NCBI GenBank assembly: GCA_021324115.1
Contig: JAJPJS010000011.1
Location: forward strand, 1 to 46,872
DNA: 46,872 nt
Source of the DNA: Nitrososphaerota archaeon
GTDB taxonomy: Archaea; Thermoproteota; Nitrososphaeria; Conexivisphaerales; DTJL01
Reading direction: 5' to 3'
Both the position numbers and the translations under genes were made by a program. Position 1 is the first letter of the stretch. Each line of letters opens with the position of its first letter. The notes below the pieces were generated by a model. That model searched no databases. It saw nothing but the letters and a program-made list of their open reading frames with translations, and was not told the DNA's origin. Of the stretch, positions 31,878 to 37,993 are shown in pieces.

Positions 31878-32729
31878 ATGGAAGGAAAGGTTTGCCTTGT
31901 TACCGGTGCAAGCTCCGGCATAGGCAAAGCCACAGCCACGGGTTTAGCCGAAATGGGAGCCACCGTATATCTCCTTTGCAGAAACGAGGCCAGGTGTGAA
32001 TCCACCATGACAGAAATAAGAAACAAAACCGGGAATCAGAATATCCATTCGCTCATTGCTGATTTCGAATCATTCAAATCTGTAAGGGATGCGGCCAGCG
32101 AGTTTCTATCAGCCAAAGTGAAGTTGCACGTCCTAGTAAATAACGCTGGCTTGTTCAAAGCTGCTCACTCGCTCACCGAAGATGGGTTTGAGACGACATT
32201 TCAGGTAAATTATCTTTCACATTTTCTACTGACGAATCTTCTTCTCGGAATTCTTGTGGAGAGCGCACCTTCCAGAATCATTAATGTCACTTCTATCGGT
32301 CATTTTCAGGGCCATATTGGGGATCCATACTCCTGCTCCAAGGCGGGCTCAGGAATGGGTGCATATTCTAACTCCAAACTCGCGCAGGTGCTCTTCACCT
32401 ATGAGTTGGCCCGCAGAATGAGAGGTTCTGGTGTAACCTCCAACTGTGTACATCCGGGGACGGTGGCGACTAACATCTGGTCACGTCCACTCGGTGGATT
32501 AGGCTTCATTTCAAACGTTGCAAAGCCATTCATGAAGTCTCCAAATGAGGGTGCAAGGGGAGTGATATACCTCTCATCATCACCCGACCTTCAGCAGGTA
32601 TCCGGAAACTACTTCGATGGCATTCAACAGGCTTCTTCTTCTCAAGAATCGTATGATGAGAGCCTGCAGGCAAGGCTCTGGGAGGCCAGCGAAATCATGT
32701 GCGGTCTGAAGAGCAACCGAAGTGGATAA
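31878..32729 (+). CDS. Short-chain dehydrogenase, retinol-dehydrogenase-like
   Basis: ATG 31878 precedes the Rossmann motif TGASSGIGKATATGLAEMG; an in-frame TTG at 31863 would add five residues. The 283-residue product has the RDH-like pattern: LLCRNEARCE for NADP, VNNAGLFKAAHSLTEDGFETTFQVNYLSHFLLT, Ser in INVTSIG and Tyr-x3-Lys in AYSNSKLAQ, then VHPGTVATNIW. Such enzymes reduce or oxidise lipophilic aldehydes and ketones. It has no close partner; the PadR operon follows after about 100 bases. Confidence 0.92.
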   Translation: MEGKVCLVTGASSGIGKATATGLAEMGATVYLLCRNEARCESTMTEIRNKTGNQNIHSLIADFESFKSVRDAASEFLSAKVKLHVLVNNAGLFKAAHSLTEDGFETTFQVNYLSHFLLTNLLLGILVESAPSRIINVTSIGHFQGHIGDPYSCSKAGSGMGAYSNSKLAQVLFTYELARRMRGSGVTSNCVHPGTVATNIWSRPLGGLGFISNVAKPFMKSPNEGARGVIYLSSSPDLQQVSGNYFDGIQQASSSQESYDESLQARLWEASEIMCGLKSNRSG

Positions 32730-32796: not shown

Positions 32797-32810
32797 TATA
32801 TATTTATATA
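32797..32810 (+). promoter_or_regulatory. TATA region of the PadR / repeat protein / MFS operon
   Basis: TATATATTTATATA is centred about 25-28 bases before ATG 32831. The first ATG at 32813 would lie too close to the box for a transcribed start. Confidence 0.55.
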
Positions 32811-32834
32811 CCATGCCGGAGGCGTTCGGCATGG
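32811..32834. promoter_or_regulatory. Perfect 8-base inverted repeat, likely PadR operator
   Basis: CCATGCCG (32811-32818) and CGGCATGG (32827-32834) are exact inverse copies around an 8-base spacer. The repeat fills the space between the TATA region and the expected transcription start, where a bound repressor would block polymerase. Centre-to-centre spacing of 16 bases is suitable for a winged-helix dimer. Confidence 0.55.
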
Positions 32835-33358
32835 AACATGATTCTCTAGGGTCGACCCACAGCGGCCTGGTGGGTTTCTATGCTCTGTCCATGATGAACA
32901 AATCACCCATATACGGAAGTGACGTTGTTCACAGGATCTTCGAACAGACCAATGGTACCTGGCTACTTGGTGCCGGGGCGTTATATCCAACGCTAAATCG
33001 CCTGGTGAAAAGAGGCTGGGCAAAAGTGGATTTTGTTCAGGGAAGAAAGAAGTATTCCATCACTAGTAAGGGAAGAAGGTCTCTTCTGGCTTTCCGCTCA
33101 GATATGAATGCGAAGGCAAAGAAATACATGTTTGCGTGGAGATTGATTCTGGATCTGATTGATCATGAACAGCTCCCTGATTTCGTAGTTGAGAGATTAA
33201 AGGTCAGCCTGAAGGTTACGGAATCTGTCCTAACAGAGCCGAGATACGAGCTTACTTCACAGGAGAAGAGATATCTGAGCACGGCGGTCCGACATGAAAT
33301 TGATAGGTTTCAAAGAAGGATGTACAATGTAGGATTGGGGGAGGCGATAAGACAATGA
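32831..33358 (+). CDS. PadR-family transcriptional regulator, first copy
   Basis: ATG 32831 is preferred over 32813 because of the TATA spacing. The product, about 175 residues, has a PadR winged helix: GLVGFYALSMMNKSPIYGSDVVHRIFEQTNG, LGAGALYPTLNRLVKRGWAKVDFVQGRKKYSITSKGRRSLLAF, then a C-terminal helical dimerisation region. PadR proteins usually repress efflux or stress genes and release DNA when they bind a toxic ligand. Its stop overlaps the start of the next gene (ATGA), and that gene abuts an MFS exporter. The inverted repeat across its own start suggests self-regulation of the three-gene operon. Confidence 0.9.
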   Translation: MEHDSLGSTHSGLVGFYALSMMNKSPIYGSDVVHRIFEQTNGTWLLGAGALYPTLNRLVKRGWAKVDFVQGRKKYSITSKGRRSLLAFRSDMNAKAKKYMFAWRLILDLIDHEQLPDFVVERLKVSLKVTESVLTEPRYELTSQEKRYLSTAVRHEIDRFQRRMYNVGLGEAIRQ

Positions 33359-35001
33359 ACACAAAAGCCATCATTCTTATTGTTTCACTTCTGACGCTCT
33401 ATCTGCCGCTTTCGGCCGCTGCAGCATTTACTCCACCCCAAACGTTCCAGGCCGAGGCGGTATGGGGCTCACCTCAATCCCCTATCGTCGCTTCGCCAGG
33501 GTCCAGTAATTTGCCTTTATCCATCACGATCATAAACCTTGGCCCCAGCCCTGTAACAAACGTTACCGCTACATTCGACACGGCTTATCCACTGGTTCCG
33601 GTCCCTGGGCAACCATTCAACTTAACACAATACGTTCCCTCACTACCCCCGGGTTCGACCATATCCCTCTTTGGCTACTTCAGCGTGTATGAAAGTGCAA
33701 AACAGGGAGTATACAATGAGACAATAACGCTGAACTACCTAACTGGAAATTCGGCGACGACGGAGAAGATCGGGGTAAGCGTAGCGATACTGGGTCCATC
33801 CCAGGGGCCACAGACGTTTGAAGCCTCGGCAGTCTGGGGTTCCCCGGGGTCTCCCATTGTGGCTGCTCCTGACTCCACGAACCTACCGCTCGTCCTGACT
33901 GTATACAACGTGGGCCCCAAAACAGTTTTCAACTTCACCTTAACATTCAATCCTTCCTCTCCGATCACGTCGGTGCAGGGGCAGTCGACACATCCTTCCT
34001 CCCAGGCACCGGTGTTGCCGGTGGGGTCGTCCATAACACTCCTTGGATATTACAACATAGCGGCCGGCACGGGTAGTGGACTGTACAATCAGAGTATAAC
34101 CTTGTATTACTCCAACGGAACACAAAACTTCGTCCAGTCCCTCACAGTCGGCGTCCCCGTTCTGGGTTCTGCGAACATACAGCTGTCGTCCTTCAACTAT
34201 ATCCCCACAGTATTATATCCTGGATACCCATCAGCAGAGCTCCAGGTTTATCTGATCAATACGGGTACAGCACCCGCTACGAATGTCAATGTATCTCTAT
34301 CCACTGCAGAACCGGTTTATCCACTCTATGCCGGTTCGACAACAAGATTCATCGGGTTCCTTCCCGTTGGGCAGCCTGTGCCGGTGGTGTTTCCGCTCGG
34401 AATAACCAACACATCCACAACCAGTAACACGACGTTGAGTCTGAGGGTCAACTATAACGGGGTTGGTTCAGCTTCATTCGCCATTCCGTTCCAGGAGAAT
34501 CCAAAGGCGGTGCTGGAAATTACATCCGTTTCCACTCCGACGGTGAACATAGGGGACACCGCAGACTACATCACACTGACGATAAGCAACGTAGGAGGTG
34601 CCGCAGCGGAAGGAACGAGCATAACTTTAGTCCCTTCCAACGTGTTTCAACCGAGCATACCCTCGAGTTCAAGCCCTCTACTGGCAACGACCTACCTTAA
34701 TGCTTCTGCAGGCACGATTCTTCCAGGACAATCAGCTCAGGTAACCTATGTGGTCACAGTCAACCCCAACATAGCGGCCGGCACATATCAACTGACCTTT
34801 GTGGGGAGATGGATTCAGAGCGGCGCATCTTTACCTTTCGTTCAACAATTCACTGTTTCGGTTCCCGTGCATCAATCATTCATTCAATCGTTTGGTTCAG
34901 AGTTGACCAACCCCATCGTGATCATAATTATAGCTTTGCTACTAGTGTTAATCATAGTCTCCATCGTGCTCGCGGTAAGAAGTAGGAGAAGGAAGAGCTA
35001 G
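33355..35001 (+). CDS. Secreted repeat protein anchored by a C-terminal helix (COG1361/CARDB-like)
   Basis: The 548-residue product begins with a signal peptide (residues 1-24, AAAA before the cut) and ends with one transmembrane helix (about 517-541) followed by RSRRRKS, so nearly all of it lies outside the membrane. Residues about 27-147 and 151-270 are clear copies of one another, each starting PQTF/PxTFxAxAVWGSP and ending with YN..ITL.Y; two more divergent beta-sandwich units follow at about 270-375 and 385-505. The units resemble CARDB/NEW3 domains of archaeal S-layer-linked proteins (COG1361). Many Asn-x-Ser/Thr sites suggest N-glycosylation. It lies in one operon with PadR and an exporter, which suggests a cell-surface partner for transport; that role is inference. 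Confidence 0.8.
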   Translation: MNTKAIILIVSLLTLYLPLSAAAAFTPPQTFQAEAVWGSPQSPIVASPGSSNLPLSITIINLGPSPVTNVTATFDTAYPLVPVPGQPFNLTQYVPSLPPGSTISLFGYFSVYESAKQGVYNETITLNYLTGNSATTEKIGVSVAILGPSQGPQTFEASAVWGSPGSPIVAAPDSTNLPLVLTVYNVGPKTVFNFTLTFNPSSPITSVQGQSTHPSSQAPVLPVGSSITLLGYYNIAAGTGSGLYNQSITLYYSNGTQNFVQSLTVGVPVLGSANIQLSSFNYIPTVLYPGYPSAELQVYLINTGTAPATNVNVSLSTAEPVYPLYAGSTTRFIGFLPVGQPVPVVFPLGITNTSTTSNTTLSLRVNYNGVGSASFAIPFQENPKAVLEITSVSTPTVNIGDTADYITLTISNVGGAAAEGTSITLVPSNVFQPSIPSSSSPLLATTYLNASAGTILPGQSAQVTYVVTVNPNIAAGTYQLTFVGRWIQSGASLPFVQQFTVSVPVHQSFIQSFGSELTNPIVIIIIALLLVLIIVSIVLAVRSRRRKS

Positions 35002-36456
35002 ATGCAGGAAGAAACGACCCAGGAATTCGATACTGGCTACGCGAACCGAACCCTCTTGCTATTCGGCGGATTCGCCGTCTTCGTTATGTACGTGGAATCG
35101 ATGCTCACCCCATCCCTACCATCGATCGCAAGCGAATTCAACGTGTCCGCATCACAGGTTAGTCTCGTTCTTTCGATGTACATGGTCAGCGGCGTAGCAT
35201 TGAATCCGATCATAGGGAAGCTGGGGGACATATACGGTAAGAAGCGCATGTTCACCTACGTACTGATATTCTATGCATCTGCAGTGACCGTAACTGGCTT
35301 CTCACCAACCTTCTCGTTCCTTATTGTATCCAGAACCATCCAGGGAATCGGACTCACAATGTTTCCTCTAGCCATGAGTCTAGTCAGAGAGGAATTTCCG
35401 CGAAAGATGATACCGAGAGCACAGGGTATTCTCAGCGGCATGTTTGGCGCCGGCTTTGCCATAGGCTTGCCTCTTGGAGCATACCTTTCAAATGATTACG
35501 GCTGGAGGACGACCTATCATACCGCTCTTCCCTTTGCGATCCTCTTTGCGATACTTATTTCAACACGAGTCAGAGAATCAAGGTATCGAAGGCCTGACGC
35601 AAAGCTGGATTATCCCGGCTCCGTACTGCTTGCTTTGTCTCTGGCATCGATCGTGTTAGGATTATCGCTGGGACCGAATTGGGGGTGGACATCTTACCCG
35701 ATACTTTCACTTCTAGGTTTTGGTGTAGTGCTGCTGATTCCGCTGGTGCTTTGGGAGAGAAAGGCACCGGAACCTGTGCTGAACATGAAACTTCTCAGAC
35801 AAAGGAACGTTCTGAACGCCAATCTTGTTGTGTTGATCGCCGGGCTAGGAATGTTCCTGGCATTTCAGACAGTAGTTTACAGGCTGGAGTTGCCTCCGCC
35901 GGTGGGTAGCGGATTCGACATACTTTCGACCGGGCTGGCACTTGCACCAATCGCTCTGATAATGTTCGTGGTGGCTCCGATAGGCGGTGTGATCATTTCA
36001 AGGACGGGTGTCAAACCACTTAGCGTAGCAGGTTCGATCATAGGAAGTGTGGGATTCCTTCTTGCAGCCATGACCCCAAGCACGCAGTCGATAATCGTCC
36101 CAATGATAGTATTTGCCGCGGGCATAGCAACCCTGATGGTATCCACAGCCAATCTTCTTGTGCTTACGGTGGATCCAAGAGAAATGGGGCTAGCAACATC
36201 ATTGAACACGGTTTTCAGAACGCTCGGAAGTAGTCTGGGAGCACCGATAGCCGGGTCGCTCATAAGCACATTTACGACGTGGATACTCGTAGGATACATT
36301 AATGGAGTACCCTCCTTCTATTCTGCTCCCTCCACACTTTCATTTCAGTATTCATTCTACATAGCAGCGATACTGTTTCTGGTCGCAGGATTCCTTTCCC
36401 TCACGGCATCTGAGGTTCTTGGGAACAGAAGACAGAAGGCGGCATTTCCTGAATGA
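35002..36456 (+). CDS. MFS drug/proton antiporter, DHA2-like
   Basis: The 484-residue product has about fourteen hydrophobic segments, the DHA2 size. Motif A is GKLGDIYGKKRMF; the antiporter motif C region reads GILSGMFGAGFAIGLPLGAYL; SRTIQGIGLTMFPLAMSLVREEFP is typical of multidrug exporters. It would expel drugs, lipophilic acids or other toxic compounds in exchange for protons. Its ATG begins directly after the stop codon of the surface-protein gene, with no gap, so expression of the two is coupled. PadR control with an exporter target is well known in bacteria; the surface protein between them is the unusual part. Confidence 0.9.
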   Translation: MQEETTQEFDTGYANRTLLLFGGFAVFVMYVESMLTPSLPSIASEFNVSASQVSLVLSMYMVSGVALNPIIGKLGDIYGKKRMFTYVLIFYASAVTVTGFSPTFSFLIVSRTIQGIGLTMFPLAMSLVREEFPRKMIPRAQGILSGMFGAGFAIGLPLGAYLSNDYGWRTTYHTALPFAILFAILISTRVRESRYRRPDAKLDYPGSVLLALSLASIVLGLSLGPNWGWTSYPILSLLGFGVVLLIPLVLWERKAPEPVLNMKLLRQRNVLNANLVVLIAGLGMFLAFQTVVYRLELPPPVGSGFDILSTGLALAPIALIMFVVAPIGGVIISRTGVKPLSVAGSIIGSVGFLLAAMTPSTQSIIVPMIVFAAGIATLMVSTANLLVLTVDPREMGLATSLNTVFRTLGSSLGAPIAGSLISTFTTWILVGYINGVPSFYSAPSTLSFQYSFYIAAILFLVAGFLSLTASEVLGNRRQKAAFPE

Positions 36457-36523: not shown

Positions 36524-37384
36524 TTACAGAATTATTCCGAGGGCAAGCAAAAGACCGAAGGTAAGATAGATCATCGAAGAAATTTCGACACCATGCAGCC
36601 ATCCTACCTTGCGTAAATTTCTGAATCCCAGGATGGCTACGGGGATTGACAGCAACGGAGTTAAGAGTTTAACCGATTCTGTGAACGCTGAGATGAGGAG
36701 CATCCATATGTAGGATGCAACAAGCATAAGTGCGAAAACCACTTCAGAGTAGCGCTTCCCGACCAGCACAGGTATAGTCCGCCTGCCTGCAGATTTGTCC
36801 TTATTCAGGTCCCTGATATTGTTCGCCAGGAGTATCATGGCCACAAGCAATGATAGTGGCACGGAAACGTAGTATACCAGAGGAACAATTTTACCAGAGC
36901 TCACGAATTCTGAAGCAACAACCTCAACGAGTCCCATGGTGATCCCAACGATCATTTCTCCAAAGGGAGTTTTAGAAAGTGGTAAAGGACCTTCGGAATA
37001 AATCACGCCGATCAGGAGTGCGATCCCTCCCAACAGAAGTAATATGAGGCCTCTGATAAGTATCAAGGGAATTGAAAGGAAAAACGCCAGCAGGTCCATC
37101 GTTATCCCGATCCAGAGTATCTGCCTCGGAGTCGATGTGCCATCCACAATTAATCCCGCAAAGCCATAAGACTTCGTTTTATCGATCCCCTTGACGTAGT
37201 CTCCATGCTCATTGAACACATTCGTGGCCATCTGCATCAAAATTGCGACGCCGAAGAAATCAATCCATAAGTAAGGATGGAAAATACCCAGTCTGAAGGC
37301 GATGCTTCCCCCTACACAGACAGGTACGAGGGTAGCAGATAGAGAAGGAATTCTGATGAGCGTGATAAAGTGTCCGAGCTTCAT
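36524..37384 (-). CDS. UbiA-family prenyltransferase, MenA-like
   Basis: The 286-residue membrane protein has about eight hydrophobic segments and both Asp-rich motifs of the family: NVFNEHGDYVKGID after helix 2 and NNIRDLNKDKSAGRRTIPVLVG after helix 6. The second one is close to that of 1,4-dihydroxy-2-naphthoate polyprenyltransferase, which attaches the isoprenoid tail in menaquinone synthesis; Thermoplasma makes menaquinone-like quinones. The first motif reads NEHGD where many have NDxxD. Heme O or lipid prenyltransferase roles are less likely. TTAAATTTAG lies about 24 bases before ATG 37384, so the mRNA is probably leaderless. Confidence 0.85.
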   Translation of the reverse strand: MKLGHFITLIRIPSLSATLVPVCVGGSIAFRLGIFHPYLWIDFFGVAILMQMATNVFNEHGDYVKGIDKTKSYGFAGLIVDGTSTPRQILWIGITMDLLAFFLSIPLILIRGLILLLLGGIALLIGVIYSEGPLPLSKTPFGEMIVGITMGLVEVVASEFVSSGKIVPLVYYVSVPLSLLVAMILLANNIRDLNKDKSAGRRTIPVLVGKRYSEVVFALMLVASYIWMLLISAFTESVKLLTPLLSIPVAILGFRNLRKVGWLHGVEISSMIYLTFGLLLALGIIL

Positions 37385-37564: not shown

Positions 37565-37993
37565 TTACTTTGTTACAGATACAAGTGCGGATAGCCTTTC
37601 TTTCAACGTGTTGATGCGAGATGAATATGGCTCCAGCTTCTGCTTCTCTGCCTTCGAGATATCTTCCATGTATGATACGAAGCCCTCCATTTCGTTCAGC
37701 ATGTCGTCTATCCTCGACACACTCTTTCCACCGAACCAGGGATACCAGTCCATTTCACTCTTGCTCTTATCGGTGAGAGCATATCTTCCGTCTTCCTGTT
37801 TCTTTATGTAACCATCTTTTTCGAGTTCACCTAGGAGAGGATATACCGACCCGGGCGAAGGTCTCCACCAACCCTGGCTCTGAAGTTCTATTTCATCCAT
37901 TATCTCGGCACCAGTTTTAGGTGCTGAACTCAGAATAGACAGGACCCAGATGCGTAGCCCTCTATGCCTTCGGAACATATGGTGTTTCCACAT
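37565..37993 (-). CDS. PadR-family transcriptional regulator, second copy
   Basis: The 142-residue product has the PadR pattern: GLRIWVLSILSSAPKTGAEIMDEIELQSQGWWRPSPGSVYPLLGELEKDGYIKKQEDGRYALTDKSK, then a helical tail rich in Glu and Lys. It starts with ATG 37993; ATG 37978 is a possible alternative. The promoter region just before it carries tandem inverted repeats (37997-38027), so it likely represses itself. The UbiA-family gene lies 180 bases downstream on the same strand with its own TATA-like box and may or may not be its target. Confidence 0.9.
   Translation of the reverse strand: MWKHHMFRRHRGLRIWVLSILSSAPKTGAEIMDEIELQSQGWWRPSPGSVYPLLGELEKDGYIKKQEDGRYALTDKSKSEMDWYPWFGGKSVSRIDDMLNEMEGFVSYMEDISKAEKQKLEPYSSRINTLKERLSALVSVTK

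Follow-up and report, generated by a model that had tools for sequence, protein, structure and literature searches.

The window analysed here comprises positions 1 to 46,872 (46,872 nucleotides, forward strand) of contig JAJPJS010000011.1 from the Nitrososphaerota archaeon assembly GCA_021324115.1, and it carries at 32797-36456 three tightly packed genes on the same strand, encoding a PadR-family regulator, a secreted repeat protein (hereafter REP) and an exporter of the major facilitator superfamily (MFS). An initial annotation, made from the sequence alone, had read these genes as an export system in which REP serves the exporter as an outer-face partner; a placement of the host among the Thermoplasmata was not borne out, the host belonging to the Nitrososphaeria, in the Conexivisphaerales group. 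The features of the locus (TM, transmembrane) are as follows.

32797..32810, plus strand: TATA-box-like element, TATATATTTATATA (ttTATATA); a similar element lies ahead of PadR in both sister loci
32811..32834, plus strand: perfect inverted repeat CCATGCCG-N8-CGGCATGG, candidate PadR operator, single-copy
32831..33358, plus strand: PadR-family winged-helix regulator (PF03551), start likely at 32831 and leaderless (ATG at 32813 as alternative)
33355..35001, plus strand: REP, type-I membrane protein of four beta-sandwich units, predicted to be secreted (profiles, hydropathy, model)
33355..33426, plus strand: signal-peptide-like hydrophobic helix of REP, residues 2-22 (hydropathy and model)
33442..33789, plus strand: REP beta-sandwich unit 1, one of two N-terminal near-repeats (model residues 30-145; alignment)
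33817..34161, plus strand: REP beta-sandwich unit 2, near-repeat of unit 1 (model residues 155-269)
34177..34497, plus strand: REP beta-sandwich unit 3 (model residues 275-381)
34513..34872, plus strand: REP beta-sandwich unit 4, NEW3/CARDB-like (PF10633, 3e-07; PF07705, 7.5e-05; residues 387-506)
34912..34995, plus strand: C-terminal TM anchor of REP with basic tail (sequence and model)
35002..36456, plus strand: MFS exporter, DHA2-like, 14 TM helices (PF07690, 3.5e-50; model)
36274..36330, plus strand: extracellular beta-hairpin joining TM11 to TM12 of the MFS exporter, a candidate site of contact with REP (model residues 425-443)

The PadR gene closes with a TGA at 33358 and REP opens with an ATG at 33355, an ATGA being common to both, and the REP stop codon (TAG, 34999-35001) is followed with a gap of zero by the ATG of the MFS gene at 35002, which ends at 36456. 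Both junctions were verified as the initial annotation had described them in support of joint expression, and purine-rich stretches resembling Shine-Dalgarno sequences are found at both internal starts (GGGGGAGG; GGAGAAGG). Because the short-chain dehydrogenase/reductase gene upstream of PadR ends at 32729 and the gene downstream of MFS, a UbiA/MenA-like prenyltransferase (36524-37384, minus strand), is convergent, the three genes stand as an isolated unit, and PadR, REP and the DHA2-type MFS exporter appear to form a single transcription unit, preceded by a TATA box. A second PadR gene (37565-37993, minus strand) lies upstream of the UbiA/MenA-like gene on the same strand.

REP is a protein of 548 amino acids whose sequence and AlphaFold2 model (mean predicted local distance difference test score (pLDDT) 82.5; predicted TM-score (pTM) 0.44) show predicted secretion and anchoring in the membrane at the C-terminus, with four successive beta-sandwich domains, each of about eight strands, ahead of a TM helix (residues 520-547) and its basic tail RSRRRKS. 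The four-unit array read from the letters alone is thus confirmed by the model, as is the likeness of units 1 and 2, both of which carry TFxAxAVWGSPxSPIVAxP; the shorter three-unit REPs of another MFS-linked clade have only one such N-terminal near-repeat unit. REP exceeds the cut-off of the NEW3/NPCBM_assoc profile (PF10633; 31 bits, cut-off 24.4, with unit 4 matching best) and that of CARDB, its remaining profile matches lie below their cut-offs, and the match to the S-layer profile NF033506 scores 23.5 bits where the cut-off is 110. Profile searches found no HlyD-type adaptor domain in REP and the model of four beta-sandwich units contains no alpha-hairpin, in agreement with the earlier view that any parallel with bacterial adaptors is one of logic and not of homology. 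The sequence has no cysteine and therefore no lipobox of the LprG type, and Foldseek searches against the PDB returned generic Ig-like strings only, with TM-scores mostly of 0.16-0.38. The signal helix, the single C-terminal TM helix and an excess of N-glycosylation sequons in most REPs together place REP outside the cell.

The exporter has the MFS fold (PF07690, 171 bits; 14 TM helices in the model, pLDDT 84.3, pTM 0.82) and scores below the cut-off of the EmrB subfamily (TIGR00711; 156.2 bits against 230.2). Among solved structures it comes closest to EfpA, EmrB, QacA and the Rv1410 homologue MHAS2168, and such relatives export hydrophobic drugs or lipids. The TM11-TM12 loop stretch measures 36-44 residues in all 32 REP-linked MFS exporters and 22-48 residues in the REP-less ones; a long hairpin as a mark of REP linkage was not upheld, being present also in many REP-less MFS exporters of the Sulfolobaceae. 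The genome also encodes a second MFS of the subfamily (G000:C26:58973-60376; L070:5962-7914), which shares 45% identity with the window exporter, is without REP and is divergent from an RrpB-like MarR/HxlR regulator.

Gene order across genomes shows REP-family genes packed with four unrelated exporter superfamilies, namely MFS, ABC-2, MacB-type ABC and MMPL/RND, and judged on this evidence the partnership of REP and exporter is not accidental. When REP homologues were collected from 61 related genomes by REP similarity alone, neighbours being disregarded, 30 of the 31 genes lay in exporter operons, often with 4-nt overlaps (MFS in eight cases, ABC-2 in 11 and MacB-type in 11, where one MacB-type case at a contig end shows the ATPase only), and one stood alone. 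Across the phylum (300 genomes, REP at E <=1e-15, neighbour classes by our tally) REP was present in 52 genomes and adjoined an exporter in 34 of them (MFS 21, ABC-2 10, MMPL 2, MacB 1), the others having an MscS-like channel (6) or none of these (12). A wider set of REP-MFS pairs was gathered partly through MFS, a selection of which the 61-genome and 300-genome counts are free, and a same-strand exporter permease lay within 120 bp of 57 of 98 REP genes in a set so selected in part, against 6 of 711 controls (0.8%). From the side of the exporter, REP was the most recurrent neighbour family of the MFS group (5 of 39 representatives at <60% identity; 2 for the next family). With REP homologues recurring beside exporters in this way, the outer-face partnership proposed initially is plausible.

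Within the family of the window genome the PadR-REP-MFS triplet is kept in two of three relatives, with REP/MFS identities of 50/69% (G001) and 51/68% (G002). REP-MFS pairs also occur in other Conexivisphaerales, UBA164, Hestiella, Caldisphaera and Acidilobaceae, where REP lies upstream and the gap is mostly below 70 nt (-4 to 31 nt where measured). A single REP protein used as query against the wider genome contigs gave no match and REP sequences vary too much for their alignment to serve as a query, whereas the MFS alignment was effective. The third relative (G003) has a REP without an exporter on a 4.8-kb contig (L033:2862-4208), followed by an open reading frame that by eye resembles a BtuF-type binding protein. 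Two Sulfolobaceae genomes have a REP homologue placed after an MMPL/RND exporter gene (L260:3976-8485; L261:3834-8437), and in six others (L262, L264, L268, L272, L273 and L274) it adjoins an MscS-like channel gene, an assignment made by profile in two of the six and by size and sequence similarity in the other four. PadR lies directly upstream of REP without MFS, followed by small uncharacterised proteins, at L279:4351-7292 and L280:3184-5819, and the REP and MFS genes of several crenarchaea (L158, L177, L126, L127 and L289) run divergently. The three MFS homologues found in Thermoplasmata/Thermoplasmatota (L181, L188 and L216) have neither PadR nor REP adjoining, and the idea of conserved triplets in Thermoplasmata was set aside on these three, no wider search of that group being possible.

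The regulator matches the PadR profile (PF03551; 47.7 bits against a cut-off of 27), and 51 solved chains, mostly of the PadR family, match it at E <=0.01. Alignment with the sister loci favours its start at 32831 over 32813, and in all three loci the likely start is preceded, at a distance of about 20-30 nt, by a TATA element. Directly 3' of this element in the window, the inverted repeat joins two exact 8-nt arms and spans the ATG at 32831. Perfect arms of at least 8 nt with a spacer of at most 12 nt are met by chance in about 0.5% of random sequences of 60 nt and, given that eight such perfect repeats are present across the 47-kb window, the repeat is suggestive by position only. It occurs once in exact form in the 2.14-Mb genome; its sole one-mismatch match falls within the coding sequence of an RNA polymerase subunit, on which ground the palindrome was rejected as the mark of a regulon. 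As a conserved operator of the triplet it was likewise rejected, being absent from both sister loci (G001 and G002). The palindrome described at the outset therefore stands as a perfect 8-base repeat next to the TATA element but is not kept in the sister operons, and it is a plausible candidate for an autoregulatory site, no more.

Our reading is that the locus probably encodes a PadR-controlled export unit in which REP is a dedicated extracellular accessory subunit of the exporter. The TM helix of REP would sit beside the exporter with the beta-sandwich string over its exit, perhaps in contact with the extracellular TM11-TM12 hairpin. In that position REP would lend the pump stability and, beneath the S-layer, take up or steer the cargo that leaves it. 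PadR-family regulators usually repress their targets until a ligand relieves the repression; here, PadR would bind the inverted repeat across the start site, repress its own operon and be released once the exported or a related compound binds.

Several observations weigh against this reading. Co-occurrence of genes differs from a physical complex, the inverted repeat is missing from the sister loci, many Sulfolobaceae REPs have no adjoining exporter (some lie beside an MscS-like channel gene), and the sequon excess in the window REP is weak (10 against 6.7 expected). Among 94 sampled MFS exporters, moreover, only 28 have a REP neighbour and 66 are without one, and the 45%-identical paralogue in the window genome also lacks it. 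Since most MFS exporters of the subfamily do without REP, it is not needed for transport as such. The conflict between the REP and MFS trees, set out below, also weighs against a tight one-to-one coevolution of the two proteins.

On the MFS tree the trait of having a REP neighbour requires at least 7-8 changes. All 10 members of a second MFS clade keep REP, as do several other clades, and the closest MFS exporters outside the order, from Nitrososphaerales and Micrarchaeota metagenome-assembled genomes (MAGs; 51-55% identity), often have a PadR neighbour and no REP. The initial annotation had taken the partnership to be accidental should related exporters usually lack the repeat protein: most do lack it (66/94), the nearest outside-order exporters having PadR only, while three triplets within the family, the whole of the second clade and several other clades retain it. 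The gene-order evidence makes REP an optional module. The MFS exporters of the window family do not form one clade with those of the other Conexivisphaerales and Acidilobaceae (approximately unbiased (AU) test, p ~1e-48), and inheritance of their REP-MFS pairs as one unit was rejected by this test, yet the window REP groups with the MFS-linked REPs (support 99/98). This suggests that the PadR-MFS pair gained a REP of the MFS-partner type or that REPs were exchanged, and from the sequences one or the other seems to have occurred. A REP tree constrained to the MFS tree was also rejected (p 0.002), several branches of both trees being long. The ABC-2-linked REPs form one clade and so do the MacB-linked REPs, and the phylogeny thus shows REP subtype tracking exporter class even where the individual exporter was swapped.

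A precedent for an outer-face partner of an MFS transporter is EmrA (PMC13139468). The EmrA-EmrB(-TolC) and MacA-MacB systems likewise combine a DHA2 MFS or MacB-type exporter with a single-pass protein lying mostly outside the cytoplasmic membrane, and EmrB is among the structures nearest to the window exporter, whereas REP is anchored by a TM helix at its C-terminus, consists of beta-sandwich repeats and is unrelated in sequence to EmrA or MacA. We know of no TolC in archaea. In the mycobacterial triacylglycerol exporter LprG-Rv1410 a DHA2-fold MFS likewise shares an operon with a partner anchored in the outer leaflet, and contact has been inferred at the TM11-TM12 extensions (PMC10576003), the same place as the hairpin of the window exporter; LprG is, however, a lipoprotein with a lipid pocket, whereas REP is a TM-anchored string of domains without cysteine. 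The monocarboxylate transporters (MCTs) and basigin or embigin likewise join an MFS protein to a single-pass Ig-like glycoprotein (PMC12894981), and 7ckr appears among the Foldseek matches, but these systems are eukaryotic, belong to another MFS family and involve a trafficking role. With its NEW3 and CARDB profiles REP falls in the loose group of COG1361/NEW3/CARDB archaeal 'S-layer domain' proteins, which are usually annotated as envelope structure, whereas REP homologues are often packed with exporters. PadR-regulated exporters, with PadR beside the exporter, are likewise found in the Nitrososphaerales and Micrarchaeota MAGs, but the window operon has REP between regulator and pump. Because fold, anchoring or family differs, REP is an analogue of the EmrA, LprG and basigin families and not a member of them, and we infer by analogy that it works like EmrA/MacA, LprG or basigin.

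It is unlikely that REP is instead an assembly or stability subunit, holding the exporter in the membrane with no cargo contact as basigin and embigin would for MCTs. The layout matches (one TM helix, a beta-sandwich ectodomain and an MFS partner), basigin and embigin heterodimerise with MCTs and aid their trafficking and transport (PMC12894981), and the number of REP domains, from three to many, suits a scaffold over a precise conduit; Archaea, however, are not known to have a secretory trafficking step of the basigin kind, and a TM-specific chaperone explains less easily the occurrence of REP with four structurally unrelated exporter folds. The 4-nt overlaps and fixed gene order with exporters across families, the tracking of exporter class by REP subtype and the adjacency of 57/98 against 6/711 make it quite improbable that REP is instead a protein of the cell surface or associated with the S-layer, placed beside exporters by chance or because envelope genes are regulated together, an explanation that draws on the putative S-layer domain annotation of COG1361-like proteins (PMC10354927), on the weak NF033506 match and on the Sulfolobaceae REPs that often lack exporter neighbours. 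A third explanation, that REP binds cargo as an extracellular lipid- or compound-binding protein taking molecules from the transporter, recalls the Rv1410 homologue among the structural relatives of the exporter and the encoding of Rv1410 with the outer-leaflet lipoprotein LprG, a carrier of triacylglycerides (PMC10576003), but is quite improbable for a protein with a generic beta-sandwich fold, only Ig-like strings as Foldseek matches and neither a lipobox cysteine nor any other.

An exporter that spans one membrane and has a further barrier beyond it requires an outer-face partner, for which bacteria use HlyD-type adaptors, and in Gram-negative bacteria the exporter classes that adjoin REP work with such adaptors. 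Tentatively, and with more doubt than we attach to the accessory role at this locus, REP proteins might form a general class of archaeal exporter adaptors serving MFS, ABC-2, MacB-type and MMPL/RND exporters and conducting or releasing cargo toward the S-layer. In the library searched, we came upon no account of a COG1361/NEW3 protein as partner to archaeal MFS exporters, nor of an outer-face exporter partner in S-layer archaea. REP is a candidate for such a partner, from a widespread and possibly mis-labelled family that moves between exporter superfamilies; its pairing with exporters gives a concrete test in culturable acidophiles, and many 'S-layer domain' proteins would need a new annotation if such a role is true.

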